Assembly (NCBI GenBank): GCA_016235545.1
Contig: JACRKB010000032.1
Span: 1 to 64,000, forward strand
Source of the DNA: Verrucomicrobiota bacterium
GTDB lineage: Bacteria > Verrucomicrobiota > Verrucomicrobiia > Limisphaerales > SXTU01
DNA length: 64,000 bases
Reading direction: 5' to 3'
Below are positions 11,193-56,716 of this stretch, piece after piece (positions within the stretch are counted from its first letter, which is position 1; the number at the start of each line of letters is the position of its first letter). Below the pieces are notes generated by a model, which saw only the letters and a program-made list of their open reading frames with translations, did not search any database and was not told the origin of the DNA. Both the position numbers and the translations under genes were made by a program.

Positions 11193-11289
11193 GCGGCTTT
11201 CAGCGCGGGCAGGGCCGCCGCGCCGTCGCTCACGTGTTCCGCATCGGGCGCGAGTCAGCTTTTGAACGGTCGCGTAGCGACCCCCTGAT

Positions 11290-11454
11290 GGTAGCCGTGG
11301 GTTTCAAACCACGGATCGGCGTCCGATAGTCATGCGTCGCGTAGCGACGCCGGAACGCCGGCCACGAAAGTGTGTGGAAGGCGGGTGGTTCAAGCGTCGC
11401 TACGCGACGCGGGTTGTCGTTGGCCCGAACCGCGGGTTGAAACCCACGGCTACC
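11290..11454. repeat. Nested inverted repeat (TAGCCGTGGGTTTCAAACCACGG / CCGCGGGTTGAAACCCACGGCTA arms with internal GCGTCGCGTAGCGACGC palindromes)
   Basis: Seen directly in sequence in the argS/11579 intergenic region. Confidence 0.85.
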
Positions 11455-11578
11455 TTCAAACTCTCGCTCCTGCTCAAATCATGATTTGCGACCTTCCGCA
11501 TCGAATGGCGTAGTTTCGGATTGCGTCGCAAATGGCATTCCGGCATTTAACTCGGCAGCACCAAGCAAGGGATACTTC

Positions 11579-17725: not shown

Positions 17726-19648
17726 TCACTGATTCGTGAACAGCTCCCAGTCTCCCACTTGTGCGAGGAGGCGCAGCGGCTTGCCACGCGCGAGCGGACG
17801 GGAGCTGGTGAAGGAGCCCTTGAACCCCACCACCAGCACGCGCCGCTGGCCGGCGAGCAGGTTGCTGAAGATGGAGTCGTCCTTGAGCACGCGGTCGCCG
17901 AAGCGGGCACGGTTGCCGGGAAACTCGAAGGGCATCCGGTGCTCTGGCAGGCCGGACAGCCAGGGCCGCCGCTCCGCGCTGATGACCGGGTGCGCGTAGA
18001 AGGGCAGCCCTTGCGGGATGCGGTGGCGCACGATGATCATGTCGCCCTCGCGGAACTCGCGCTTCAGGGCAAGACCCAGCGGCTTGAGCGTCTGGTTGCT
18101 GCGCAGGTCCGCCTCCACCAGCGGCGTGAGCGCCACCACGGCCAGGAGCGCAAGCGTGGCCAGTCCGCATGCCCAGCGGGTGCAAAGCGTCACCGACCAT
18201 TTGCGGCTCTCCCACACGACGGCCCCGAGCAACATCGTGGCGGCGAGCGGTGTGACCTTCACCCACAGATGATCGTGGACTTTGAAGACGAACCAGCACG
18301 CGATGGGAAAGGCAATGAGCGGGAGCAGCGCGGCGGCAGGAAGCGCACGCCACAGCCAAGCTTGCGGGCCGGCCTCCGACTTGGCGTGTGGCGGCACAGT
18401 CGATGAACCTGCCGGGTCGTGTGCCGGCGCTCCGAAGACGGCTGGCCAACGCAGCGCCACCAGTGCGGCGAGTGCGGGAAACATCGGCAGGATGTAGTGC
18501 ATCAGCTTGGCGCTGTTGACCGAGAAGAGCACGAAGGTGAAGCCCGCCCAGACGCTCAACACCAGCCATGCCTCTTGCGTGCGCGCGTCCATCGACCGCC
18601 AGTGCGCGCGCCGCCAGAGCCAGCCCAGCAGCAGCGTCCACGGCAGGAATCCGACGGCGAGCACGGGCAGGAAAAACCAGAAGGGCTGCGCGCGGTTCTT
18701 CACCGCCGCCTGCACCGCGTGGCCGACGATCTGCCCCTTGACCATGAACTCGAACGAGTTCGGCACAGTTTCCCAGACCATCAGGAACCACGGCAAGGCA
18801 AGCGCCACAAAGAGCGTCACGCCCGCGAGCGTTCCAAACAGCAAGATGCTCAAACGCGCGTCCGCAGTTCCGCTCCGCCACCAGAGCAACCCGCCGAACG
18901 GGACAAGTGTGAAATCTTCGGCCCCGGATTTTGGGATGCGCTTGCAACGCCACCAAAGGAGCGCGCCAAAGGCGACGAGCGGAATCACCAAAGCAATCGG
19001 TCCCTTCGTCAGCGCACCGCCCGCCATCGCAGCCCACGCCGCAAGCTGCCAGCCGAAACTCCTTCGCGCTGCCAGCCCCTGAGCATCCGCCGCCGGATCC
19101 TCCTCGCCTGACTCCTGACTACCGCCCGCTGACTGCTGACCGCTGACCGCTGACTGCTCCTCGATTCCGTCGAGGCTCCGCCAGCTCTGCCAGAAAAAGT
19201 AAATTGCCCACGCGATGAACTGCGTGAGGAAGATGTCCGTCGTCAGCATCCGCGCCATCACCCAGTAGAGGGTGGACGTGCTGAGGAGGAGCACGGCCCA
19301 ACGCGCCGCAGCCGCGCCCGCGATCGAGCGAATGAGGAGGAAGGTGGCCCACGCCGCGCTGAGGCCCGCGAGCGCCAGCGGCAGGCGCACGGCCCATTCG
19401 TTCACGCCGAAGACGGAGAGCGACGCGGCGACGGCCCAGTAGGTGAATGGCGGCTTGTCGAGGTGCGGCACATACCAGATGTGCGGCACGAGCCAGTTGC
19501 CAGTCTCGACCATCTCGCGGGCGATCTCGGCGTAGCGGCCCTCGTCCGGCTCGTTCAGCGAGCGAGTGCCGAGCAGGCCGAGGAAGAGCAGGAGCACGAA
19601 TGGCAGAAACCACCAAGGCGGGCGTTGGTCGGAATCGGCTTGCGGCAC
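17726..19648 (-). CDS. ArnT-like/PMT-family membrane glycosyltransferase
   Basis: LLGTRSLNEPDEGRYAEIAREMVETGNWLVPHIWYVPHLDKPPFTYWAVAASLSVFGVNEWAVRLP; multi-TM. Confidence 0.88.
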   Translation of the reverse strand: MPQADSDQRPPWWFLPFVLLLFLGLLGTRSLNEPDEGRYAEIAREMVETGNWLVPHIWYVPHLDKPPFTYWAVAASLSVFGVNEWAVRLPLALAGLSAAWATFLLIRSIAGAAAARWAVLLLSTSTLYWVMARMLTTDIFLTQFIAWAIYFFWQSWRSLDGIEEQSAVSGQQSAGGSQESGEEDPAADAQGLAARRSFGWQLAAWAAMAGGALTKGPIALVIPLVAFGALLWWRCKRIPKSGAEDFTLVPFGGLLWWRSGTADARLSILLFGTLAGVTLFVALALPWFLMVWETVPNSFEFMVKGQIVGHAVQAAVKNRAQPFWFFLPVLAVGFLPWTLLLGWLWRRAHWRSMDARTQEAWLVLSVWAGFTFVLFSVNSAKLMHYILPMFPALAALVALRWPAVFGAPAHDPAGSSTVPPHAKSEAGPQAWLWRALPAAALLPLIAFPIACWFVFKVHDHLWVKVTPLAATMLLGAVVWESRKWSVTLCTRWACGLATLALLAVVALTPLVEADLRSNQTLKPLGLALKREFREGDMIIVRHRIPQGLPFYAHPVISAERRPWLSGLPEHRMPFEFPGNRARFGDRVLKDDSIFSNLLAGQRRVLVVGFKGSFTSSRPLARGKPLRLLAQVGDWELFTNQ

Positions 19649-23342: not shown

Positions 23343-26015
23343 ATGCCCGACGAAACTCCACCCACTCCCACGCCCGCACAGACCGGCTCCGCCTACACGC
23401 AGGGCGAAAAAATCACCAAGATAAACGTCGCCGACGAGATTAAGAACTCGTTCCTCGACTACTCGATGTCCGTCATCATCTCGCGCGCGTTGCCCGACGT
23501 GCGCGACGGCCTCAAGCCCTCGCAACGCCGCATCCTTTACGCGATGCACGAGCTGTCGCTCTTCCCCGGGCGCAAGCACTACAAGTGCGCCAAGATTTGC
23601 GGCGACACCTCCGGCAACTACCACCCGCACGGCGAGGCGGTGATTTACCCCACGCTCGTCCACATGGCCCAGCCGTGGGTCATGCGCGAGAAGCTCGTGG
23701 ACGGCAAAGGCAACTTCGGCTCCGTCGAGGCCGACCCGCCCGCCGCGATGCGTTACACCGAGGCCCGGCTCACGCACCTGGGCGCGGCGCTGATGCAGGA
23801 CATGGACCGGGACACGGTGGACTTCGTCCCGAACTACGACGAGCGCATGACGGAGCCCACCGTCTTCCCGGCGGCCTTCCCGAACCTGCTCGTCAACGGC
23901 GGCACCGGCATCGCCGTCGGCATGGCCACGAACATGCCGCCGCACAATCTCGGGGAAATTGTGGACGGCATCTGCGCGCAGATTGACGACCCGGCCATCA
24001 CCATCGCGGGCCTGATGAAGTTCATCAAAGGCCCTGACTTCCCGACCGGCGGCTTCATCTGCGGCATCGAGGGCATCAAGAATTATTTCGAGACCGGGCG
24101 CGGCTCCATCAAGCTGCGCGGCAAAATCGGCAGCGAGGAATTGCGCGGCAACCGCGAGCAGCTCGTCATCACGGAAATCCCCTTCAACGTGAACCGCGCT
24201 GCGCTCGAATCGAGCATCGCCGACCTCGTGAACCAGAAAATCATCACGGACATCTCCGCGATGCGCAACGAGTCCGACGAGCACTGCCGCCTCGTCATCG
24301 AGCTCAAGCGCGACGCCCTGCCCAAGGTCGTCATCAACAATCTCTTTCAGCACACCCAGCTCGAGATTTCCTTCAGCGTCAACGCCCTCGCCATCGACCA
24401 CGGCAAGCCCAAGACGCTGAACCTCAAGCAGCTCATCTCCGCCTACATTGACCACCGCCGCGAGGTCATCCTGCGCCGCACCCGCTTCGAGCTGCGCAAG
24501 GCCGAGGACCGCGCCGAGATTCTCGAAGGCCACCTTGTCGCCCTCGCCAACCTCGACGAGTTCATCCACATCATCCGCAGCAGCGACAACAAGGAGGAAG
24601 CCCGCGTCAAACTCCTCGCGTTCGAATGGACGCGCGAGCAGGTCGAGCGCTGGGGCATTCTCATTCGTCGCGAAAACCAGCTCACCGACGGTCGTTACTC
24701 GCTCGCCGAACGCCAGGTGGACGCCATCCTCGAACTCCGCCTCTACCAGCTCACCGGGCTTGAAATTGACAAGGTCGAGGCCGAATACAAAGCCCTCCTC
24801 GAAGTCATCAAGGACCTGATGGACATCCTCGCGAAGGAACCGCGCGTCATGGGCATCATGAAGGCCGAGCTGAAGGCCATTAAGGAAAAGCACGCCACGC
24901 CGCGCCTCAGCCAGATTGTCCCCGACGAAGGCGAGATTGCCATCGAGGACCTCATTGCCAACGAGGGCGTCATCATCACCCTCACCCATGCCGGCCTGCT
25001 CAAGCGCACCGCCGTCTCCGCTTACCGCGCCCAGCGTCGCGGCGGCAAGGGCGTCATCGGCATGACCACGCGCGAAGCCGACACGCCCGAGGAGAGCGAC
25101 TTCATCGAGCACCTCTTCACCGCCAGCACGCACGACTACCTGATGTTCTTCACGAACAGCGGCCGAGTGTATGTCGAGCGCGTCCACGAAATCCCCGACA
25201 TGGGTCGCGCCTCGAAAGGCCGCAGCATTGCGAACCTCCTCGAACTCCAGGCCAACGAGAAAATCGCCGCCCTCATCCGGATCCAGTCCAAGACCGATGC
25301 CAACAAGGCCGACGTGACCTGGCAGCAGCCGGGCGAACTCTTCTTCGCCACGCAGCAGGGCACGGTGAAGAAGACCACCCTCAACGAATATGGGAACGTC
25401 CGCAAAGGTGGCATCATCGCCATCGGCATTGATGCAGCCGACAAGCTCATTGACGTCAAGCTCACGCGCGGCAGCCTCGTGGAGAGCGACGAAGTGAAAG
25501 ACCCCGGCGACGATGTTGTCCTCATCACCCACAGCGGCATGAGCATCCGCTTCAGCGAAGCCGATGTGCGCTCCATGGGCCGGGGCGCAGGCGGCGTCAA
25601 AGGCATCACCTTGGAAGCAGGAGATGAAGTCGTCGCCCTCGCCATCGTCGTGCCCGACGCGACCCTGCTCGTCGCCGGCGAAAATGGCATCGGCAAGCGC
25701 ACCTCCTTCGACGAATATCTCGTGCAATCCGAAAGCGGCGCGCGCAAGCAATCCCGCGGCGGCAAGGGCCGGATCACCATGAAAGTCGGCGACAAGACCG
25801 GCGGCGTGGTCGGCGCGCTCACCGTGCAGGATGCCGACGAAATCATGCTCATCACCGCCGGAGGCCAGATGGTCCGCATCCCCGTGCAGGGCATCCGCGA
25901 GGCGGGCCGCAACACCATGGGAGTGAAGCTCGTCAACCTCGACCCCGGCGACAAGCTCCTTGCCATCGCCCCCGTCATCAGCGAGGAGCGAGGCGAGGAA
26001 GCCCCATCCGCCTGA
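23343..26015 (+). CDS. gyrA: DNA gyrase subunit A
   Basis: SVIISRALPDVRDGLKPSQRRILYAM; GDTSGNYHPHGEAVIYPTLVHMAQPW; GyrA-box AQRRGGKGVIGM. Confidence 0.96.
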   Translation: MPDETPPTPTPAQTGSAYTQGEKITKINVADEIKNSFLDYSMSVIISRALPDVRDGLKPSQRRILYAMHELSLFPGRKHYKCAKICGDTSGNYHPHGEAVIYPTLVHMAQPWVMREKLVDGKGNFGSVEADPPAAMRYTEARLTHLGAALMQDMDRDTVDFVPNYDERMTEPTVFPAAFPNLLVNGGTGIAVGMATNMPPHNLGEIVDGICAQIDDPAITIAGLMKFIKGPDFPTGGFICGIEGIKNYFETGRGSIKLRGKIGSEELRGNREQLVITEIPFNVNRAALESSIADLVNQKIITDISAMRNESDEHCRLVIELKRDALPKVVINNLFQHTQLEISFSVNALAIDHGKPKTLNLKQLISAYIDHRREVILRRTRFELRKAEDRAEILEGHLVALANLDEFIHIIRSSDNKEEARVKLLAFEWTREQVERWGILIRRENQLTDGRYSLAERQVDAILELRLYQLTGLEIDKVEAEYKALLEVIKDLMDILAKEPRVMGIMKAELKAIKEKHATPRLSQIVPDEGEIAIEDLIANEGVIITLTHAGLLKRTAVSAYRAQRRGGKGVIGMTTREADTPEESDFIEHLFTASTHDYLMFFTNSGRVYVERVHEIPDMGRASKGRSIANLLELQANEKIAALIRIQSKTDANKADVTWQQPGELFFATQQGTVKKTTLNEYGNVRKGGIIAIGIDAADKLIDVKLTRGSLVESDEVKDPGDDVVLITHSGMSIRFSEADVRSMGRGAGGVKGITLEAGDEVVALAIVVPDATLLVAGENGIGKRTSFDEYLVQSESGARKQSRGGKGRITMKVGDKTGGVVGALTVQDADEIMLITAGGQMVRIPVQGIREAGRNTMGVKLVNLDPGDKLLAIAPVISEERGEEAPSA

Positions 26016-26019
26016 GCCT

Positions 26020-26085
26020 CGTGCCGGCGACTTGCAGTCGCCGTCATCTGTGTGCACGACACCCGACGGCGAGTGCAACTCGCCG
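26020..26085. repeat. Bipartite palindromic element (CGTGCCGGCGACTTGCAGTCGCCGTC ... CGACGGCGAGTGCAACTCGCCGACG)
   Basis: 26-nt segment 26020-26045 is exactly the reverse complement of 50877-50902; diverged copy at 28471-28496. Confidence 0.85.
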
Positions 26086-26158
26086 ACGCAGGTTCATGGG
26101 CAGCCGAACGCCCACCTTTTTCATTCTCTCCACTTCGCACCACGACTAGCCTGCTCGC

Positions 26159-30574: not shown

Positions 30575-31202
30575 AAGTGTCGTTTCCAATGAACGGCCAA
30601 TCAGCCGTGCCGTCCTGCTTGGTGGCGCAAAGAAGTAGTCGGCGGCAGTGCGGATTGCACGGAAAAAGAAGCGCCTCAAGAGGGACGCTCCGGCCTTTGC
30701 GGTGCGCCACCGCTACTCGTTGATCCCGCTGTGTGAAAAATCCCTCTCCTCCGGCAGCCATGTCTCTTCCAGCTCTTCCCATCGGGAAAGTTTGCGAGCT
30801 CCACCGGGGGCGCTGTCATCGGCGATGGGAACTCCGGGTGGCGGGATGCTCAGTGGGAACAATGCGACAGCAGGCGGCGCTTCGGGTGGTGGCGACGATG
30901 ATGGCTGCGTGCTCATGTCAGCAATTTCTTCTAAGGAACTCCGTGTAAGTTGTTCACGAATCTCATTCGCGCAAGGGGCAATTTTTCGCAGCCCGAATCT
31001 TGGCGGTCTCCCAACGGCCCTTGCTTGTCCCCCGGGCGCAAATCAGGAATTGCGAACCTCTCATTAGCACACGGCTTCAGGGTGTTGGTGCATGAGCACG
31101 ATGGCCAGGCGTTTCAACGGCTTTTGCAAACCGCCCAGCAAGCCATCTGGGGCAGACTGCTGAATTCCTGAGCCGCAAGCCGAATTCGTCGAGGCCAACC
31201 CT

Positions 31203-35000: not shown

Positions 35001-35140
35001 TTCGGTGGAATGGCAATGAACCACGACGTGCGCTGACTCCCTCCCCCTTCCTCGGAGGAAGGGAGAAGGCGCGCGTCGTGGCATCCTGTTTGCATTCCAC
35101 CGACCGGCATTGGGAATTGGTATGATTCCACCGGGTTTCG
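35001..35140. repeat. Dispersed palindromic repeat containing CCTCGGAGGAAGGGAGAAGGCGCG...GCATTGGGAATTG
   Basis: 35055-35119 matches 52953-53018 at about 57 of 65 positions by eye; GGTGGAAT / ATTCCACC arms. Confidence 0.8.
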
Positions 35141-45376: not shown

Positions 45377-48300
45377 TCATGCGGCGACAGGTTGACCGGC
45401 CTCCTCCATGGCCTCCGACAGCACGCGCGCGGCGGTGGGCAGATGTGGACGAAGCGCCTCGAGGCGTTCGTTGATGGTCGCCAGCAATTCACCCGCGCTG
45501 AACGAAATCAGCCGGCGATACCAACGAACGAATTCCCGGCTCACCGCAGCTTCCCCGGCGGCAAAGGACGCGGTCTCGGTTCCCTCCACCAACTCCAGCA
45601 GCAGGCGCGCCGACTCGTGGATGGCATTTCCCCTCTGCGAGCTGCGGCGGAGCAGCGCCAGCGCCTCGCTGCTCTGCTGCGACAGCATCAACGCCTCCGC
45701 CCGCTGCACGAGCACACCGTTGTGTTCGGGGAAATGAGCAACGGCCTCGCCAGTCCAGTCAGCCGCGAACTCGATGAACTCGGGCCGGCTCAAGGCAAGC
45801 TGCCCGCCCAGCAGCCACACATGCGGCTCTTGCGCCGCGTCGCCAACCATCGCGTGCAACGTTTGCAGCGCGTCCACCACGCGACCGCGCTCGCCCAGCC
45901 ACCGTGCGAAATCAAATCGCGCCGCCCGCGCTCCGGCATCCTCCGCAAGCGCGGCCAGAAACGCCTTCTCTGTCTCGGCGTGTTGCCCCGCGCCCCACCG
46001 GCACAGCGCGAGCACATGGTGCGGCCCGGCCTTGCGGATGTCGCGGTTCACTGGCGAGAGCGTCGGCTCATCGCGCTTCGCGAGACACTGATGCATCTGC
46101 CCGGCCCCATCAGAGAACTGCTTCAGCTCCAGCGCCGCCAGGCCGGCCATGAAATGAATCGAGGCCGTCAGCCCGCCTTGCTGCGCAAGCGGTGATTCGA
46201 CCACGCGCAGCACCTCGGCGAACTCCTTCGCCGTGTGAAGGTGGCAGACATATTGGGTCAGCAATGCTTCGCGCAACTCGGGCACAACGTCTTTCTTCGG
46301 CAGCCCCGCGAGCTGACTGAAGGCTGAACGGTAGTGTTCCAACCCTTCTCGCAACTGCCCGGAGCGCACCAGCTCCAGGCCCATGTTCATCAGCAGCATC
46401 GGTTCGCCCGGCAGTTCCTCGATGGCCCGTCGCAGCAGCCGTAGATTTCGCTCTATCTTGTTCCGGTCCGCGATGACCTCCGCGCTGTAGCCGTGGTGCC
46501 GCAAGGTTGCCGTGCCCAGGCGCGTCTCCATTCCCCATGCCTCGCACTTCACGAGGATGCTTGGGAACACCTGCTCATGGACGCGCCCGTAGAAGAACAG
46601 GCCCGGCGCGTTGCGCCACAGGCGCGGCACGTAGCACTGCCCGTCCTCTTCTTGCCCGACGTTTTGCAAACGCAGCCGCACGGCCAGAACGTCGGCCGCT
46701 GCCATGTCCGCCCGCAACTTCGCGTGCTCGCAGGCCGGCAGCTCCTCGTCCGCATCGAGGAACATCACCCAGTCCCCGGTCGCGTGCGCAAGCGCCGCAT
46801 TGCGCGCCGCGCTGAAGTCGTCCTCCCACGGATGCGAATACACCTCCGCCCCGCGCATCTTCGCGATTTCCACCGTGCTGTCGGTCGAGCCGGTGTCCAC
46901 CACGATGAGCTGGTCCGCCAGGCCCCGCACAGAATCGAGGCACTGGCCAAGAAACTTTTCCTCGTTCTTGGCGATGACGAAAATGGTCAGGCGCGGCTGC
47001 CCGGCCTTTGCGGGCAGCGCGGGCCAGCGGACGTTCGAGACGCGTCCGCGCGACTGCAGAGCCTTGTGAAATCTCTTCGCGGCCCGCCAATGCGGGACAA
47101 GCTGGCGCGCGCGCGCCGCACACTCGCGCGCCATCGCCACATCGCCGGCAGCCTGCGCCGTCTCCGCAAGCAACAGCCACGCCTCGGGGTGGAACGGGCG
47201 CGCCTCCAGCGCCATCAGCGTCTCAGTCCACGCGGCGAAGTGTTGACCCCGCTGCAATGCCGCGCGCGCCACCGTCAAGTCACCGACCCGGCCCACCGGC
47301 GGCAGCTTGAGCTGAAACGTCGGCAGGCTTCCACTGGCGGTGTCACCACCCCGCGCCACGTCCGTGATGAACGGCGCGGGCGCGGGCGCCGGAGCGGCGC
47401 GCTGCCCTTCACCCGCGAAAGCCAGCAGCAGTTTCTCCCACTCGTCCCACTCGCGCTCGCGCGGAAAGTCCTTCGCCGTCGCCAGCCCGCCTTGCACCAG
47501 GCGCTCGCGCAGAGAGCGGTCGCGCATCAGCTTTTCCACCGCCTCCGCGATGGCCTCGGGCGAGCCCACCGGCACGAGCAGGCAGTTCACGCCTTCGCGG
47601 CAATACTCCCGCGCGCCTGGCGTGTCCGTGCAGACCACGGCTGCGCCGGCGGCCATCGCCTCTTGCGGCGGGCGCGGGCAGGAGTCGTAGTGGGACGCGT
47701 AGATGAGAATGTCCGCCGTGCCGAAGAGGAATGTCTTGAGTTCATCCGCCGGCGCGACGTGAAACTCGCAGGGAAACTTCGCAAAAATCTCCGGCCCGGT
47801 GCCGGAGATGCGGACAGCGGTGAAGTGCGGGCAGCGCTTCGCCAGCAGCGTCAGCGCGTCGTGGATTTCCTGAATGCCCTTGAACGTGAGCGGCTCCTCC
47901 CGCGTGCCACGCGAGTCCGGCCCAACTATGAGGAGGCGCAGCTTCGAGCCTGGCAAGGCGCGCGACAGCGGGCGGAAAACCGTCTGGTCCGTGCAGACCG
48001 GGAGAATCGCGTCGGCCTTCCGGCCCGTCGTGCGCTCGACCGCGCGGGCGAGGTTGTGAGAATTCGCCACGAAACGCACGCCCGGTGCCTGATACGACAG
48101 GCCCGACAGCTCGCGCAGCAGCCGATGCTGCTCCGTGTCCGGCAGCGTCGCATCGGCGAAGACATACTGGTCGCCCTGTGCGTAATAGACCTTCACCGGC
48201 GCGGTGACTGCCTTCAGCTCGTGTGTGTTCGTGAAGTAGGTGCTCACCACCACGTCGCTGGGCGGAACGGACGTCGCCATCCCCTGCCCTTCCGGCACGC

Positions 48301-51300
48301 GCACCACTCGCACCTGAAACTGAAACCAATCCGGCTTCTCCGTGCGCGTGACGATGGTCACGTCGTGACCCTTGCGCCGCAGCTCCTCCGCCTGCCGCAG
48401 CAGCGTCTGGTTGCCGCCAGTCACGCCGAGAATGCTCTCGATGAGATAGGTCACGCGCAGCGTGCGGTCCGGTGTGGCTGCGGCTTCACGGGGCGGCGAG
48501 GCCGGCACGGCACTGCCTTGAGCAGCGCGCAACGCACTTTCCTCCACCCTCTCATCAGCACCGGGCTTCAGCCCGGTGGAGTGCGCGGGCGAGGCAGCAG
48601 CCGTTTCAACGGCTTCTGCCCTGTCATTTCCGCCCCCGCACAGCACCGCCAGATTCTCCTTCGCAATCGCGTTGTCCGGCTCCAACTCCAGTGCGCGCGC
48701 GATGACGAGCCGTGCCGTCTCCCTGTCGCCCGCGTGCTGAAGGCAGAACGCCAGGCCCAGCAGCGTGTCCACGCAGTCGGGTGACTGTTGCAAAATGCGT
48801 CCGAAAACCTTCGCCGCATCCGCCCAGCGGCCAGCCTCGCGGTTCAGCCGCGCGAGCAGGCGCAGCGCGTCGAGATTCTCCGGCTCCAACTCCAGCGCAC
48901 GCGCCAGCGCCGCTTCGAACTCCTCGACGCGGCCAAGCTGCACGGCCGTCGTGGCCAGCTTCAAGTGCGCAGCCGCGCTCCGTGGCTTGTGCCGGACCGC
49001 CAGCACAAATTCCACTCGGGCCGGCTCCAGTTCGCCAAGCTGGAACAGCACGCTGCCCAACGCTTCGCGCAGCTCGCCAGACTCCGGCAGCAGCGCAACC
49101 GCCTGGCGAAGCGCATCCCGTGCGCCGGGCAGGTTGCCTTGGCTGAAGTGCGTTTCGGCGCGGGCAATGTGTTCACTCACAAACACAGCCGGACGCTGCG
49201 CCTCCGCCTCCGGTGCGACGCGTGCCCACACCTGCGACGCCCACTCGTGCGACGCGGCGTCGTAAGTCTTCGGATGGTTCAGCACGATGCGCGCGCGCAG
49301 CTCCGCATCGCGCTTCGCCGCCGTGGTCAGCATGCTGCCGGCCTTGATGCGATAGCGGAACAACGGCTCGGCAATCTTCCGCGCCTTGAATCCTCGCTCC
49401 GCAGCGCCAATCCAAAAATCCCAATCCTCGTAGCCCCAGACCAGGTTCGGATTGTAGCCTCCCACCGCATCGAAGACCTCACGCCGGTAGAGCGAGCAAT
49501 AGTTGAGCTGGTTGAGCGTCGCCAGTTTCGCGAGGGAGAACTCGCCAGTCTGAAATACGCCGTCGGCATCCCCGAAGCGCAGCAGGTCGGTGAAGACGAT
49601 GTGCGTGTCCGGGTTGGCTTCGAGCACCGCGACCGTCTTTGCGAGGAAGTCCGGCGCGAGCCCATCGTCGGCGTCGAGCGGGAGAATGTGTTTGCCCAGT
49701 GCGAGGGCGATGCCGTTGTTGCGCGCCATCGCAAGGCCTTGGTTTGGCTGGTTGAGCAGGTGGATTCGGTGCGATGGATTTTCGCGAATCAGCCGCTCTG
49801 CGACCGCGCTGGTGTCATCGGGGCTGCCGTCGTTGACGATGATGATTTCCCACTCGGCGTGAGTTTGAGCGAGCACGCTGGCCACGGCCTCGGGCAGCAG
49901 GTGCGCCTGCTTGAAGCACGGGATGACGACGGACACGAGCGGCGGGCAGGCCGACTTCGCGACGAGGAGCAGCTCGACTTCCTGATGGCAGGCGTTCGGG
50001 GTGAAGCCGTCGTAAGCGGCCACGTTCACTCGCTGGCCCTCGGCGAAGAGCCGCGCCAGCGTGGCGGGCGAAAGCTCGTTGCGCGCGCCGGCACGGTTGT
50101 TGAAGTCCGCTTGGACCTTGTTGACCGGCGCGCAGAACGTGAGCGACTGCGGCACGCAGAGCAGCAGCGGATGCGACTCGCGGAAACGCGGCGCGCTCTC
50201 GGCGAGGCGGGCTTCGAGCGTGTTGGGATTATTGAAGTCGAGCGACTCCAGCAGCGGGCGCAGGTCTGCCAGCCGGTAGAGCGAGCTGGAGACTTCAAGC
50301 GGATATGCGAAGTCGCAGTCCGCACCGGGCCACGCGAAGGCGAGCGTGGCCGCGCCGGGTTCAGCGAATGTCGGCAGTGCCTGCGCACGGTTGAGCGGAT
50401 AGCAATAGGTCGTGTTCCGGCCCAGCCGCAGGGAATGGCCCACCGCGCGCGGCTCGATGGCGAGCTGGGCGCTGAGTTCAGCGAGCGTGAAATCGCGGAC
50501 GAACAAGTTGTCGTCCACGAGGAAGAGAACTTGGTCCGCACCGGCAATGGATTGAAGCAGGTCGGTCTTGAAGCGCTGCTCGGCGATGAACTCGGCGGCG
50601 GGATACTCACGGGTGAGCGCGGCGTATTGGACACGGTGCGCGGTGTCGCTGGCACAGTGAAGGACACGCAGCTTCGCGCGCCCGGCGTCGCGGCAATGGC
50701 GATAGAACGAGCGGATGGTGGCGTCGAGCTGGAGCGCGCGGTCCTTCGAGAAGATGACGGCGGTGATGGCGGCTGGCTCCAGCGGCTGTGCCGACGACTT
50801 GCAGTCGCCGGCGGTTGGAGCAACCGCAACTGGACTTGGTGCGTTGCAGCAGCCACTGGTAGCGGGGGATGCGACAGACGGCGACTGCAAGTCGCCGGCA
50901 CGGGTGCGGGCGTGAGCGAGGCGGAGATACAACTCCTCCCAGCGGTCCACGACGGAATCCCACGTCAGCTTCTCCTTCCACTCGCGGTGTCCGGCTTCGG
51001 CGAGCTGGACGCGAAGGCTCTCGTTGTCGAGCAGGTGCGAGGCTTGCGCGGCCATGTCGTCGGGCGCGCAGACCACGCCGCCCTGCCACTCGCGGACGTT
51101 GCCGCAGTCGGTGGAGACAAACGGCAGGCGCGCGGCCTTCGCTTCGATGATGACCAACGGAGACGCCTCGACGTGCGAGCCGAACAGGAACACGTCGGCA
51201 CTGCGGAACGCGGCCACAACATCTTCGCGCGGCACACCGGTGAGGAAGCGCACGTTCAGGCCGGCGGCCTGCGCACGCAGCGCGGCGAGCGTGCCGCCGT

Positions 51301-54300
51301 CGTGGCCGATGAAGACCATCGTGAAGTCCGGCCGGGCCATGCGGCGGACGGTTTCGAGGACGCGCTCCTGGCCTTTGCCCGGCATGAAGTTCGCCACGCA
51401 CAGGCCGAAGTGGCGCGTGGTGAGGCGATACTTCTCCCGGAAGTTCACGGCCAGCGGGCGCGTGAACTCGTCGGTGTCCGTGCCGTTCGGGATGACGAGG
51501 CCGTTCTTCAAGCCGAGGCGTTCGCCGAACGCGAAGTCCTGGTAGGTCGCCGAGTGATAGACCGCCGCGTCGTAGAGCGGCAGCACCGCCGGCAGGAAGT
51601 CCTGAAAGTAGGCGCGAAACTGCGGCCAGCGCAGCGTGCCCGCGTCGGCGAGCGCCGAGTAGCCGCACGGCGCAAGGACGTTGGCGCGGCGCGGGCGAAG
51701 CTCTTGAAGCAGCGGCATGGCGAGGTCGGTGGCCCATTGCTGCGCGGCGTAATTCATCATCACGTCGCAGTTGAACTCGCGGAGGAACTGCTGGTAACGG
51801 GCGAACTCGCCGTTCACGCCTTCGGCCAGTTTGCCGCTGACGGCGAACTCAACGATGCCGACGCCGTTCAACTCGCGGAACGCGCGGTCCGGCAACTTTG
51901 TCGTCGCCACCGTCACGCGATGGCCACGGCGCGCGAGCCGCTCGGAGAGCTGCTGGACGACCAGCTCCGCACCGCCGGTGTGCGGGGCGTAGAACTCGAC
52001 GGTGTGCAGGAGGTTGAGGCGCGTTGAGCCGCCGGCCCGGCGCGGGGTGCGCGCTTCCGGCGTCGTGGCGCGGGAGGCGACCTGGCCGGCCTGGTAGTCG
52101 GCGCGGATGATGGCGGCGAGTTCCTCCTGCTGCTGCGCGCGCGTGCTGCCGACGCTGGCGGGATGCAGCCGAATGCGGTGCAGGACTTCGGGCAAGTTCG
52201 CCAGCTCGAAGCCGGCGAGCAGCGCGCGGGCGAAGAAGTCGTAGTCGTCCACGGAGCGGAACGCCTCGCGATACGGGCCGACCTGCTCGAAGACGGCGCG
52301 ACGAATTAGCGCGGCGCTGTTCACCATCGAGTTCAGCTTGCCGAAGGTCGCACGAATGCGGGCTGGCTCGTGCTCCAGCGGCGGGCAGCCTAGGGATTTG
52401 CCGGTGTCGTCGAAGTATTCCGCGAAGCAACCAATGGCGGCGATGTCAGCGTGCGTCTCCAGGTGGGCCACGAGCTTCGCGAGCTTGTCCGGCAACGACA
52501 GGTCATCGCTGTCGTGGTTGAGCAAATAGCGCGAGCCGGGGTGCGCGGCCATGACAGCCTCGTTGCGCGCGGCGACCTCGCCGCGATGCGACAGGGCCAG
52601 CACGCGGATGCGTGGGTCGCGCTGCGCGTAGTCGCGAGCGATGGCGAGCGTGCGGTCGGTCGAGCCGTCGTCGGCGAGGAGGATTTCAAAGTCACCGAAG
52701 GTCTGGGCCAGCAGCGAGTCGAGTGTGGTCGGCAAGTAGTGCTCGCGGTTGTAGGCGGGGATGAAGATGGAGACGAGCGGCGGGCGTGCGCTGAGGGTGG
52801 TGGCCGTCGCGACTGGTGCGGCGCACACCGCCGCAGTCCGACTCCCGCTCGCTTCCTCGGAGGAGGGGAGAGGGTTGGGGTGAGGGGTGACGTGCGGAGG
52901 CGTTGGCACCTCCCACCCCTCATCCGGCCTGCGGCCACCTTCTCCCCTCCTCCGAGGAAGGGAGAAGGCGCGTCTCGTGGCGTTCGGTTCGCATTCCGCC
53001 GACTGGCATTGGGAATTGCTAATAGTCAGCGCGCCGTGGAGTTGTGTGAACTTTTCCATCCAGATGCTGTGCAGGCGGGTTTCGCTGGCGGAGGCATCCA
53101 CGAGGTTCTCGCGGAGGATGTCGGCCACGGCGGTGGCAAGCTCGCCGGGCGAACGCATCACGACCTTCACGGCGGTGGCGGTGACGTTGCGCGTCATCTG
53201 CCATTCGCCGAGCTGGCAGTGGACTTCGCCGAAGCCGAGCGCGCCGAGGACGCGCTGGTATTTGGCTGGATACCAGCCGTCGTAGTGGACCGCCCAGGCG
53301 GCCTCGTGCGAGCCGAAGAGGTGGCGAAGGACGACTTGTTTTTGAGCGAAGCTGGGCTGCGGCTCCGTGAGCAGACGCGCAGAAGCCTCGGCGTCGGGGG
53401 TCTCGATGGTCAGGCGACCGCCGGGCTTGAGCCAGCGTTGCCAGCGGCAGAGCAGCGCGAGCGCGGTGGGGCGGTCGAAGTGCTCGAAGACGTGGTGCAG
53501 CCGGACTTCGTCCACGCTCGCGGCGGGAAGGTCGAGGCGGATGATGTCGGCGAAAATGTCCGCCGCGACGCTGGTCTGCACGGTGTGCTCGGCGGGCGGG
53601 AAGTCCACGTTCACGTAGCCATCGAAGCGCTGCTCGCCGCAGCCGAGGTGCAGGCGCAGTGGGGCGCCGGGCTGCCAGAGGTGCGCCTGCTGAAGTTGGG
53701 CCAGAAAGCTGCGCTCAGCGGAGCCGCCGCCGGTCGGCTTCCAGCGCGGCTTCGACGCCGGGGCGGGGTGCAGGTCGCGGAGAAATTTTTCAAAAAACGC
53801 CGTGGTGGAATACTCACGCACGGCGCGCTGATGGGCGCGCTCGGCGATGGCGGCGTAGCGCGGATAGTCGGCAAGGATTGCGCGCAGGATGTCTTGAAGG
53901 CGGTCCGGCTCGAAATAGACAAACTCGGTGCCCGGCTCGAAGTAGCGCTCGACGAGATTCCACGGGTCGCGCTGGCAGAGGATGAGCGAGCGGCAGAAGG
54001 CGGCCCCGAAGAGCCGCGACTTGAGCTGCGGTGCCGGCCATGTCTGGTCGGGCGCGGCGGCGAGGAGTTCCGCGCTGCCGGGCAGCGGGAGCTGGGAGAA
54101 GGCCGTGTTCTCGCGCCAGTGCGCGTGTCGCGCGACGTTTTCAATTTGCTGCCGGGTGACGAAGAGCTGGTTGTGAACAAGTGTGACGCGGGAGCGGGCG
54201 ATGAGGGAGAGCTTCTCCTGATAGCTGCAATTGAAGTCTGTCACCGCCGGGTGCCGGAGCTGCGAGACGAAGCGATGGCGGAACGGCGCGAGGTCGCGGA

Positions 54301-54769
54301 TGAGCCTGTCAATGCCGGCGGCATGGACGCCGCCGGTGTAAATGACATCGAACTCCTTCGCGCACGGCGCTGGCGTGTGGCGCTCGTTGAAGGGGAAGAA
54401 CGCGGGCGTCCAGCGGTCGGTCTCTCCCCGGCGGTTGAGCCACTCGGCGGTGAAGGGGCAGAGCGTGAGGACATTCGCGAAGCGCTCGTCGCGGTCGAGG
54501 TGATGGAAGTCGGTGGCAGACTCGGGCACCAGGAACCGGTTCGGCTCCTCGAGTTCGAGATAGACCGCGCGCTCATCGGGTGGAAGCGCGTCGAGCGCCT
54601 TGAAATCGAAGTGGCCGGCGAAGAAAGCAAAATCGCCGGCGGTCTGGCCGGCGAAGCGGGTGAAGTCGAAGTAGCGCGCGGGGTCCTCGGGGTAGGTCCG
54701 CGCATGGTCGGTGATGACACGCATAAAGTTTTTCGGGCTGGGTGCGCCAGCCCGGTTGCAATCGCTCAA
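45377..54769 (-). CDS. Giant multi-module glycosyltransferase (3130 aa): CgeB-like, SAM methyltransferase, GT2, GT4, GT-like, GT2, TPR, GT4, TPR, GT2, TPR
   Basis: LHLGCGEQRFDGYVNVDF (MTase); PLVSIFIPAYNREHYLPTTLDSLLAQTFGDFEILLADDGSTD; PHTGGAELVVQQLSERLARRGH; PLVSVVIPCFKQAHLLPEAVASVLAQTHAEWEIIIVNDGSPDD; GVTGGNQTLLRQAEELRRKGHDV; LTIFVIAKNEEKFLGQCLDSVRGLADQLIVVDTGSTDST; TPR-like stretches between. Confidence 0.9.
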   Translation of the reverse strand: MSDCNRAGAPSPKNFMRVITDHARTYPEDPARYFDFTRFAGQTAGDFAFFAGHFDFKALDALPPDERAVYLELEEPNRFLVPESATDFHHLDRDERFANVLTLCPFTAEWLNRRGETDRWTPAFFPFNERHTPAPCAKEFDVIYTGGVHAAGIDRLIRDLAPFRHRFVSQLRHPAVTDFNCSYQEKLSLIARSRVTLVHNQLFVTRQQIENVARHAHWRENTAFSQLPLPGSAELLAAAPDQTWPAPQLKSRLFGAAFCRSLILCQRDPWNLVERYFEPGTEFVYFEPDRLQDILRAILADYPRYAAIAERAHQRAVREYSTTAFFEKFLRDLHPAPASKPRWKPTGGGSAERSFLAQLQQAHLWQPGAPLRLHLGCGEQRFDGYVNVDFPPAEHTVQTSVAADIFADIIRLDLPAASVDEVRLHHVFEHFDRPTALALLCRWQRWLKPGGRLTIETPDAEASARLLTEPQPSFAQKQVVLRHLFGSHEAAWAVHYDGWYPAKYQRVLGALGFGEVHCQLGEWQMTRNVTATAVKVVMRSPGELATAVADILRENLVDASASETRLHSIWMEKFTQLHGALTISNSQCQSAECEPNATRRAFSLPRRRGEGGRRPDEGWEVPTPPHVTPHPNPLPSSEEASGSRTAAVCAAPVATATTLSARPPLVSIFIPAYNREHYLPTTLDSLLAQTFGDFEILLADDGSTDRTLAIARDYAQRDPRIRVLALSHRGEVAARNEAVMAAHPGSRYLLNHDSDDLSLPDKLAKLVAHLETHADIAAIGCFAEYFDDTGKSLGCPPLEHEPARIRATFGKLNSMVNSAALIRRAVFEQVGPYREAFRSVDDYDFFARALLAGFELANLPEVLHRIRLHPASVGSTRAQQQEELAAIIRADYQAGQVASRATTPEARTPRRAGGSTRLNLLHTVEFYAPHTGGAELVVQQLSERLARRGHRVTVATTKLPDRAFRELNGVGIVEFAVSGKLAEGVNGEFARYQQFLREFNCDVMMNYAAQQWATDLAMPLLQELRPRRANVLAPCGYSALADAGTLRWPQFRAYFQDFLPAVLPLYDAAVYHSATYQDFAFGERLGLKNGLVIPNGTDTDEFTRPLAVNFREKYRLTTRHFGLCVANFMPGKGQERVLETVRRMARPDFTMVFIGHDGGTLAALRAQAAGLNVRFLTGVPREDVVAAFRSADVFLFGSHVEASPLVIIEAKAARLPFVSTDCGNVREWQGGVVCAPDDMAAQASHLLDNESLRVQLAEAGHREWKEKLTWDSVVDRWEELYLRLAHARTRAGDLQSPSVASPATSGCCNAPSPVAVAPTAGDCKSSAQPLEPAAITAVIFSKDRALQLDATIRSFYRHCRDAGRAKLRVLHCASDTAHRVQYAALTREYPAAEFIAEQRFKTDLLQSIAGADQVLFLVDDNLFVRDFTLAELSAQLAIEPRAVGHSLRLGRNTTYCYPLNRAQALPTFAEPGAATLAFAWPGADCDFAYPLEVSSSLYRLADLRPLLESLDFNNPNTLEARLAESAPRFRESHPLLLCVPQSLTFCAPVNKVQADFNNRAGARNELSPATLARLFAEGQRVNVAAYDGFTPNACHQEVELLLVAKSACPPLVSVVIPCFKQAHLLPEAVASVLAQTHAEWEIIIVNDGSPDDTSAVAERLIRENPSHRIHLLNQPNQGLAMARNNGIALALGKHILPLDADDGLAPDFLAKTVAVLEANPDTHIVFTDLLRFGDADGVFQTGEFSLAKLATLNQLNYCSLYRREVFDAVGGYNPNLVWGYEDWDFWIGAAERGFKARKIAEPLFRYRIKAGSMLTTAAKRDAELRARIVLNHPKTYDAASHEWASQVWARVAPEAEAQRPAVFVSEHIARAETHFSQGNLPGARDALRQAVALLPESGELREALGSVLFQLGELEPARVEFVLAVRHKPRSAAAHLKLATTAVQLGRVEEFEAALARALELEPENLDALRLLARLNREAGRWADAAKVFGRILQQSPDCVDTLLGLAFCLQHAGDRETARLVIARALELEPDNAIAKENLAVLCGGGNDRAEAVETAAASPAHSTGLKPGADERVEESALRAAQGSAVPASPPREAAATPDRTLRVTYLIESILGVTGGNQTLLRQAEELRRKGHDVTIVTRTEKPDWFQFQVRVVRVPEGQGMATSVPPSDVVVSTYFTNTHELKAVTAPVKVYYAQGDQYVFADATLPDTEQHRLLRELSGLSYQAPGVRFVANSHNLARAVERTTGRKADAILPVCTDQTVFRPLSRALPGSKLRLLIVGPDSRGTREEPLTFKGIQEIHDALTLLAKRCPHFTAVRISGTGPEIFAKFPCEFHVAPADELKTFLFGTADILIYASHYDSCPRPPQEAMAAGAAVVCTDTPGAREYCREGVNCLLVPVGSPEAIAEAVEKLMRDRSLRERLVQGGLATAKDFPREREWDEWEKLLLAFAGEGQRAAPAPAPAPFITDVARGGDTASGSLPTFQLKLPPVGRVGDLTVARAALQRGQHFAAWTETLMALEARPFHPEAWLLLAETAQAAGDVAMARECAARARQLVPHWRAAKRFHKALQSRGRVSNVRWPALPAKAGQPRLTIFVIAKNEEKFLGQCLDSVRGLADQLIVVDTGSTDSTVEIAKMRGAEVYSHPWEDDFSAARNAALAHATGDWVMFLDADEELPACEHAKLRADMAAADVLAVRLRLQNVGQEEDGQCYVPRLWRNAPGLFFYGRVHEQVFPSILVKCEAWGMETRLGTATLRHHGYSAEVIADRNKIERNLRLLRRAIEELPGEPMLLMNMGLELVRSGQLREGLEHYRSAFSQLAGLPKKDVVPELREALLTQYVCHLHTAKEFAEVLRVVESPLAQQGGLTASIHFMAGLAALELKQFSDGAGQMHQCLAKRDEPTLSPVNRDIRKAGPHHVLALCRWGAGQHAETEKAFLAALAEDAGARAARFDFARWLGERGRVVDALQTLHAMVGDAAQEPHVWLLGGQLALSRPEFIEFAADWTGEAVAHFPEHNGVLVQRAEALMLSQQSSEALALLRRSSQRGNAIHESARLLLELVEGTETASFAAGEAAVSREFVRWYRRLISFSAGELLATINERLEALRPHLPTAARVLSEAMEEAGQPVAA

Positions 54770-54788: not shown

Positions 54789-55826
54789 TTAGTTGCGCTG
54801 TGCGCGGCGCACGTCGCGCACCCAGGCGAGGCCCAGCTCGAAGACGACGGGCGGGATGTAGGCCTTGCCTTGCAGGCCGAGGTAGAGGCGTTCGAGCTTC
54901 TCGACGATGTCGCCGTCGCCGAGCTTTAGTTCGAGAAGGTCGCGGCAGAACTGCGGTGTGTGCTCCATGCCGAAGACCTCGTCCTTGAGGTTGCGCCACC
55001 GGCTCTGCGGGTTGCGTTCCTGCCAGACGTAGGGCTTGCCGTAATGCACATGGTAGTCAGTCTCCATCATGATGCGCTCGGCGATGTAGGAGGCCCAGAT
55101 GTCGTCGTAGCGGCCCACGCCGACGAGGACCATGAGCAGCGGGGCCAGCTCGGCGACGAAGCCGGTGTTCTGCGTGTTGAACGGCGAGAAAGTGCCGCGC
55201 TCGACGCTCACGCCGGTGTGGAGCAGGTCGGAGAAGTGCTGGACGAGCGGCTGGTTCGTGATGCGGTCCATCGCGTCAATGTCCGGGTCGCCGAGCCACA
55301 GGCCTGCGGCGACGCCGACGCGACGGTTGGTGCAGGGGCGGAGCTGGAACGGCGCGGCGGGCTGGCGCTGCTCGTAGGAGAAGCCGCGATGAAAGACATT
55401 CGGCAAGAGCATCGTGCCGATGTTGAACCAGCCGCCGGGAAGCTGGCAGTTTGATGCGGAGATGCCGGAGTAGGGGGCGTTGAAGACCTTGTCGAAGCTC
55501 GTGAAATAGTCGTCGCCGACCGGGAGGTTGTCGTCGTCAATCGAGATGATGACCTCGGCCTTCTGGCGGATGGCTTCAAGCAACGGGAGGTTGCGCCGCA
55601 TGATTTTGTTCCAGCCGATGATTTCGGAGGACTCGTAGCCGAGGTTCGCCTGGTCCTCGTCGCTGAGATACACGGCGTTGCCGAGGGACTCGACGAAACG
55701 GCGGGTCTCGGCGTGCGGCGTCTTCTTGTCGCCAGCCACGATGATGGACACGTCGGGGCCGAGCTGGCGGTAGCGTTCGAGAACTTTGGGAACGAAAATG
55801 GTGGTGGTGATGAGGGCGGTTTTCAT
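54789..55826 (-). CDS. Putative glycosyltransferase, DUF288/STELLO- or RGP-like
   Basis: MKTALITTTIFVPKVLERYRQLGPDVSIIVAGDKKTP...IIGWNKIMRRNLPLLEAIRQKAEVIISIDDDNLPVGDDYF. Confidence 0.65.
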   Translation of the reverse strand: MKTALITTTIFVPKVLERYRQLGPDVSIIVAGDKKTPHAETRRFVESLGNAVYLSDEDQANLGYESSEIIGWNKIMRRNLPLLEAIRQKAEVIISIDDDNLPVGDDYFTSFDKVFNAPYSGISASNCQLPGGWFNIGTMLLPNVFHRGFSYEQRQPAAPFQLRPCTNRRVGVAAGLWLGDPDIDAMDRITNQPLVQHFSDLLHTGVSVERGTFSPFNTQNTGFVAELAPLLMVLVGVGRYDDIWASYIAERIMMETDYHVHYGKPYVWQERNPQSRWRNLKDEVFGMEHTPQFCRDLLELKLGDGDIVEKLERLYLGLQGKAYIPPVVFELGLAWVRDVRRAQRN

Positions 55827-55856
55827 GCGGGGCGGAGAGGAGTTGACTTGGTGAAA

Positions 55857-55887
55857 CGCGGCCCCGCCCACAGCGGGCGGGGCCGCG
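55857..55887 (-). terminator. Strong GC hairpin between flagellin and downstream GT gene (possible terminator/attenuator)
   Basis: CGCGGCCCCGCCC-acagc-GGGCGGGGCCGCG, 13-bp perfect stem; only a weak T run (GTTTC) follows on the minus strand. Confidence 0.55.
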
Positions 55888-55912
55888 CCAACACCCAACG
55901 AACACAACCAAA

Positions 55913-56716
55913 TTACTGCAACAGCCGGAGCACGCTCTGCGGAAGCTGGTTGGCTTGCGCGAGCATGGCGGTGCCGGACTGGACAAGGATGTTGTAACGG
56001 GCGTAGGCGGTGGATTCGTCAGCGACGTCCACGTCCTTGATGCGCGAGCTGGCGGCGGTGAGGTTCTCGCGGCTGACGGCTACCTGCTCGGCGGTGCTGT
56101 TGAGCCGGGACTGAAACGCGCCGAGGTTGGCACGGTCGCTGGCGAGCTGGGTGATGGCCGTTTTCACGGTGGTCAGCGCGGCAGCGGCTGAAGCAGCGGT
56201 GGCCACCGAGGCGCTGGTCGCGCCCGTGTAGGCGGCGATACCCAGGTTGATGCCGGACATCGAGAAGGTGTTGCCTTCCGAATCCACGGTGACACTCAGC
56301 GAGGCGGACGCGAACAGGCTCACGCCGTTGAAGTCCTTGCTGGCCGAGCTGGTGACGAAGCTGGACAACTGGCTGAACTCCGACTGATAGAGGGACCGGT
56401 CGGTGTCGGTCTTCGTCACATCCTGCGCGAGGATGGAAAGCTCGCTCATGCGGTCGAGGGCACGGCCGATCTTCTGGAGGAAGCCATCCTGCGTCTGCGT
56501 GAACGAGATTGCGTTGCCGAGGTTTGACTTCGCGGCGGCGAGACGGTTGACCTGCGCGTCGAGCTTGAGCGAGACAGCGAGGCCTGCGGCGTCGTCGGCG
56601 GGGTTGGTGATTTTGGAGCCGGAACTGAGACGGTTCAGCGACTTGCCGAGCATGCTCTGGCTCTCCTGAAGGTTCCGGGCAGCGGACTGCGCCTGGATGT
56701 TTGTGTTGATGACCAT
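55913..56716 (-). CDS. Flagellin
   Basis: MVINTNIQAQSAARNLQESQSMLGKSLNRLSSGSKITNPADDAAGLAVS...VSRENLTAASSRIKDVDVADESTAYARYNILVQSGTAMLAQANQLPQSVLRLLQ. Confidence 0.97.
   Translation of the reverse strand: MVINTNIQAQSAARNLQESQSMLGKSLNRLSSGSKITNPADDAAGLAVSLKLDAQVNRLAAAKSNLGNAISFTQTQDGFLQKIGRALDRMSELSILAQDVTKTDTDRSLYQSEFSQLSSFVTSSASKDFNGVSLFASASLSVTVDSEGNTFSMSGINLGIAAYTGATSASVATAASAAAALTTVKTAITQLASDRANLGAFQSRLNSTAEQVAVSRENLTAASSRIKDVDVADESTAYARYNILVQSGTAMLAQANQLPQSVLRLLQ

Follow-up and report, generated by a model that had tools for sequence, protein, structure and literature searches.

Three families of dispersed palindromic repeats in the interdomain linkers of a giant glycosyltransferase gene of a Verrucomicrobiota bacterium

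The giant glycosyltransferase gene and its modules

The window, by which we mean the whole analysed stretch of 64,000 nucleotides from a Verrucomicrobiota genome (G000; 5.01 Mb in 311 contigs), contains a giant multi-module glycosyltransferase (GT) open reading frame on the minus strand (45377..54769), which encodes 3130 aa when counted from the listed TTG. The start of this frame is uncertain, since our own gene caller chose ~54724 instead of the listed TTG, and a codon-usage model trained on the same genome scores 45377-54769 as a single gene. The gene is built of ~11 modules, and the Pfam domains are arranged along it in the order GT, methyltransferase, GT2, GT4/GT1, GT2, TPR, GT1, GT2 and TPR. 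A reversibly-glycosylated-polypeptide-like gene and a flagellin gene are found upstream on the same strand (window 54789-56716), and a role of the giant GT in flagellin glycosylation is plausible because it lies downstream of these two genes in the same orientation. Its nearest named relatives, which point to a verrucomicrobial host, are L101, L103 and L120; no orthologue was detected in the congeners at E<=1e-40, and the flagellin-locus stretches of G006 gave no match to the giant gene.

Three linkers of the giant GT carry dispersed palindromic repeats of three unrelated families, R1, R2 (as a doublet) and R3, with one family in each. Linker 1 connects the methyltransferase (MT) module (53285..53638, minus strand, aa 378-495; Pfam Methyltransf_11/23) with the GT2 module C (52280..52771, minus strand, aa 667-830; Pfam Glycos_transf_2), and it contains an R1 element at 52842..53021 (minus strand; 180 nt or 60 codons; hairpin z = -6.9) that translates as ISNSQCQSAEC...TPHPNPLPSSEEAS. 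R1 has the structure of a long imperfect inverted repeat; its ends are similar and only roughly defined, and it contains no gene. Linker 2 leads from the GT4/GT1-type module D (50990..51976, minus strand, aa 932-1260; Pfam Glyco_transf_4 and Glycos_transf_1) to module E (49970..50767, minus strand, aa 1335-1600), and holds an R2 doublet at 50788..50901 (minus strand; 114 nt or 38 codons; hairpin z = -8.1). This doublet consists of two inverted REP-like units separated by a 68-nt spacer, has the outer ends GTGCCG and CGGCAC, and translates as RAGDLQSPS...AGDCKSSA; its deletion in silico keeps the frame open and leaves AHARTQPLEPAAITAV as the remaining linker. Linker 3 runs from a TPR region to the GT1 module H (47420..48421, minus strand, aa 2117-2450; assigned by Pfam), and its R3 element (48522..48620, minus strand; two hairpins, z = -3.9) contains CACCGGGCTTCAGCCCGGTG and AGCCGTTTCAACGGCT. 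The palindrome GGGCTTCAGCCC that the initial annotation had placed in this linker is present at 48563.

All three elements are predicted to fold far more stably than shuffled sequence. Linkers 1 and 2 are predicted to be disordered (pLDDT ~30), in a model that is based on a shallow alignment of eight sequences and in which GT2 itself is poorly modelled. With the whole 9393-nt gene as a query, no fourth repeat emerged among the 40 of 523 candidates that were scored, and an Rfam search of the window matched no known RNA family. The initial annotation had described each repeat as lying just ahead of a catalytic module; the position holds in all three cases (GT2, E and GT1), and the word catalytic is unproven for module E, which has zero matches in Pfam and zero in the PDB. 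Conservation of module E extends over many phyla, where it often opens a gene.

Further copies of each family are found within the window. A partial, intergenic R1 copy (35032..35122, plus strand) is 82% identical to linker 1 over 91 nt (35032-35122 versus 52931-53021), and this longer alignment includes the 57/65 identical positions reported initially, which are reproduced between 35055-35119 and 52954-53018. An intergenic R2 doublet of 69 nt (26021..26089, plus strand) is located directly past gyrA, and linker 2 indeed holds a 26-nt exact reverse complement of 26020-26045, just past the stop codon of the gyrA frame at 26015. A diverged R3 copy (74%) lies at 31057..31127 on the plus strand.

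Copy number and genomic placement of the repeats

The proposal that the linkers are repeat DNA is borne out by tens of copies of each family in the genome. With a 196-nt query, R1 is found in ~40 distinct places of G000 at E<1e-15, and the copies are mostly 80-92% identical to that of the window, with 92% as the highest value. The linker-2 doublet has dozens of matches elsewhere in the genome and R3 has ~40, and matches to R1 and/or R3 occur in 11/11 genomes of the genus that were examined, own genome included.

The initial annotation had also suggested a repeat search in which intergenic and intragenic copies are told apart, and the copies proved to be mostly intergenic. The placement was determined by codon-model gene calls in the window and 60 further stretches (1.07 Mb) that were picked for holding repeats, and the intragenic fractions are estimates. 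In this sample 37/40 R1 copies are intergenic and 3 are intragenic, with 5 more at ends; for R2 the numbers are 31/45 intergenic, 11 intragenic and 3 over 5' ends, with 2 more at ends, and for R3 23/25 intergenic and 2 intragenic. The giant GT holds 3 of the 16 intragenic copies of the sample, compared to 0.16 expected by length (Poisson P ~6e-4, calculated post hoc).

The 1.07 Mb contain 20 R2 doublets of 66-114 nt, most of which begin with GTGCCGG and finish with CCGGCAC. Open frames are more frequent in the intergenic doublets than in dinucleotide shuffles (69/78 versus 57 +/- 3). A doublet length divisible by three was considered as a sign that intragenic copies are under selection, and it turned out to be uninformative, as the intergenic doublets are mostly multiples of three too.

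Repeats in other genes and empty sites in congeners

Other genes with intragenic copies include murF, an addA-type helicase gene and genes for an MFS transporter, a hybrid histidine kinase, a class V aminotransferase, hydrolases, among them a glycoside hydrolase, and an rsmB-type methyltransferase. Several of these inserts occupy an evident loop or separate two Pfam domains, as in the central MFS region and in the gap between the HATPase and receiver domains. When congeneric orthologues were compared by DNA-level alignment, the aminotransferase gene provided a clean empty site, with a 71-nt R2 doublet in our genome (net +72 nt) and none in nine congeneric orthologues.

The murF loop (G000:C220 ~17773-17841; congeners L277-L283, L286 and L287) varies by species, with an R2 doublet in our genome and in G002, a single unit in G001, G008 and G009, a possible R2 remnant in G007, and no R2 in G004, G005 and G010. 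Similarly, one loop of the addA-type gene (G000:C269 ~18475-18650; L275, L276, L285, L291-L293, L298 and L301) is strongly variable. It is occupied by R1 in three species (our genome, G010 and G009) and by other sequence in five, among which G002, G003, G004 and G006 have a common non-R1 sequence, GACTCCTCACGTCGTCTCC or close to it, and G001 has a short tract only; short tandem tracts are seen in the species that lack both R1 and GACTCCTCACGTCGTCTCC. Filled and empty addA alleles were aligned in search of an R1 target-site duplication, and none was established at these edges, which are too diverged. Judging from the alignments, R1 and R2 elements are present or absent at apparently tolerated loops among close species.

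Insertion versus fusion at the three linkers

Two origins had been put forward for the linkers in the initial annotation, namely that separate GT genes fused across their intergenic repeats, or that the elements inserted at tolerant linkers. It is very likely that the three linkers hold copies of non-autonomous palindromic families inserted in frame at tolerant sites. The support for insertion comes from fused but repeat-free relatives in the case of linkers 1 and 3, and from the loops of housekeeping genes that have empty sites in congeners. Since the congeners lack an orthologue of the giant gene at E<=1e-40, there is no DNA-level empty site at the three linkers themselves.

The broadest form of the fusion model, in which all three linkers are relics of intergenic repeats that bridged once-separate GT genes, would fit the mostly intergenic placement of the repeats and the fact that the linkers part modules that shuffle widely among genomes. 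However, the methyltransferase and GT2 modules are joined in a single open reading frame without R1 in four relatives (L103, L104, L120 and L123), where ~7-37 aa separate the two, and F and H share a single frame without R3 in two (L101 and L109), which makes fusion at every linker extremely improbable. In view of these fused, repeat-free relatives, fusion across the repeats was rejected for linkers 1 and 3. Because the MT-GT2 pair already forms a single gene without R1, the repeat of linker 1 is, on this comparison, an insertion, and no gene boundary appears to be indicated at linker 3, given that L101 and L109 join F and H without R3; none of the comparators shares the TPR-GT1 junction of linker 3 itself. 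It is also very improbable that the gene is an assembly artefact in which repeat copies caused unrelated contigs to be joined. In favour of such an artefact, the assembly consists of 311 contigs and contig ends coincide with several R1 copies. Against it, the best other R1 copy is just 92% identical, all three joins preserve the frame, and relatives have a matching order of modules across linkers 1 and 2.

Linker 2 is the only one of the three that coincides with a gene boundary in close relatives. In the comparison of GT genes that the initial annotation had suggested, modules D and E are separate in L120, and MT-GT2 and F-H are single genes without R1 or R3 in other relatives or in L120 itself. 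Neighbouring genes, one ending in D and one starting with E, might have fused, and the R2 doublet might have been located between them or have bridged the lost stop codon. Module D has its closest relative in L120 (69% identical), whose D gene terminates in an ATGA overlap with the next gene, which begins with E. In addition, the L103 gene terminates after D and one more domain, a tree places the D module of the window with L120 and L103 (support 99/98), and E opens a gene in several other genomes. On the other hand, L100, L102 and L105 of the Nitrospirota have D-E-F in one open reading frame, with ~20 residues and no R2 from D to E, and the window shares this D-E-F order. The nearest E modules by tree path are also those of the Nitrospirota, a placement of the window that is unsupported, so that the module E tree does not order the D-E fusion. 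Furthermore, the linker stays open and in frame once the 114-nt doublet is removed, and none of the other intragenic copies that were looked at is positioned at an evident fusion point. Taken together, we favour insertion at linker 2 and consider a fusion of neighbouring genes there possible but unlikely. That the R2 doublet itself took part in fusing adjacent GT genes, as a mobile palindrome that supplied the linker at fusion, is decidedly unlikely.

Under the insertion model, R1 (~180 nt, MITE-like), R2 (a REP-like doublet) and R3 (a double hairpin) would have copied themselves into sites that tolerate extra disordered residues. The few surviving intragenic copies preserve the frame, have no stops in the frame used and are sited in linkers between domains or in surface loops. 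A modular gene of ~11 modules would offer many tolerant sites, and for this reason it could have collected three repeats. The identity and copy number of the repeats, their open frame, the repeat-free relatives of the flanking modules and the empty sites in congeneric genes are observations, and what we infer within this scheme is the near-neutrality of the inserts, the sequence of events and an enzyme that mobilises the repeats.

Mobilisation and relation to known repeats

The genome encodes three Y1_Tnp (RAYT-type) genes (L185, L186 and L187), and more are found in the genus. The three genes of our genome are flanked by inverted repeat pairs, none of which is R1 or R2. The ~1.5 kb around the Y1_Tnp loci of our genome and the congeners contain no R2 unit as far as these incomplete genomes extend, and the R1 matches near the Y1 genes of congeners are short. 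Mobilisation of R1, R2 or R3 by a linked RAYT was thus set aside, as no convincing link was seen in our genome or in the genus sample. L186 has one CGGGCTTCAGCCC core that resembles the core in R3. Separately, the window contains an inverted pair with GTAGCCGTGGGT (11286-11319 and 11425-11458) that looks like a GTAG-tagged REP doublet, and GTAGCCACGGGTG, which is similar to GTAGCCGTGGGT, is present beside the Y1 gene of L185.

REPs and REP dimers of the GTAG and CGTC super-families are short palindromes that are mostly intergenic, with the inverted dimers mostly 20-100 bp apart, and the CGTC families have 8-9 bp stems with AT pairs and 4-5 nt loops (PMC3733652). Intragenic REPs are known from many species, with the highest number of GTAG ones in Opitutus terrae, a member of the Verrucomicrobia; some lie in frame, also in recBCD-type genes, and two Xanthomonas species have different REPs at nearly the same position of recB (PMC3733652). 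Flexible linkers and loops have already been proposed as tolerated REP sites, which would explain the neutrality of the inserts (PMC3733652). R2 resembles REPs in being a high-copy short palindrome with many inverted pairs and conserved outer ends. It differs from the GTAG and CGTC types in the GTGC outer tag beside its stem. Many units do have a CGTC next to the stem, on the inner side, but the CGTC families are described with the stems and loops given above. Compared to the intragenic REPs, R1 is much longer, and three families share one gene here. The two inverted units, conserved ends and variable spacer of the R2 doublet, together with the three Y1_Tnp genes in the genome, are also reminiscent of RAYT-mobilised REPINs, but no RAYT gene adjoins R2 in our genome or the genus sample. 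Similarly, the structure of R1 recalls MITEs such as ERIC/IRU and Correia elements, although neither a parent transposase nor a target-site duplication was identified for it.

Rickettsia palindromic elements (RPEs), which have been reviewed together with other in-frame fused elements, are dispersed palindromes of ~100-150 bp with open frames that are found in frame in conserved genes as well as between genes (PMC2229807, PMC10969869). Like RPEs, the elements described here have intergenic copies as well as in-frame copies within conserved genes, and are absent from orthologues; unlike RPEs, they have different sequences, belong to another phylum, and their intragenic copies are a minority.

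To conclude, the in-frame insertion of palindromes has precedents and does not prove fusion across repeats. As far as the literature was searched, the R1, R2 and R3 families and the occurrence of all three in a single glycosyltransferase gene are undescribed. In this genus, loops such as those of addA and murF make it possible to track species by species whether a protein-coding repeat is present. Three repeat families supply linker sequence to one modular enzyme, and translated repeats within linkers need not mark gene fusions.
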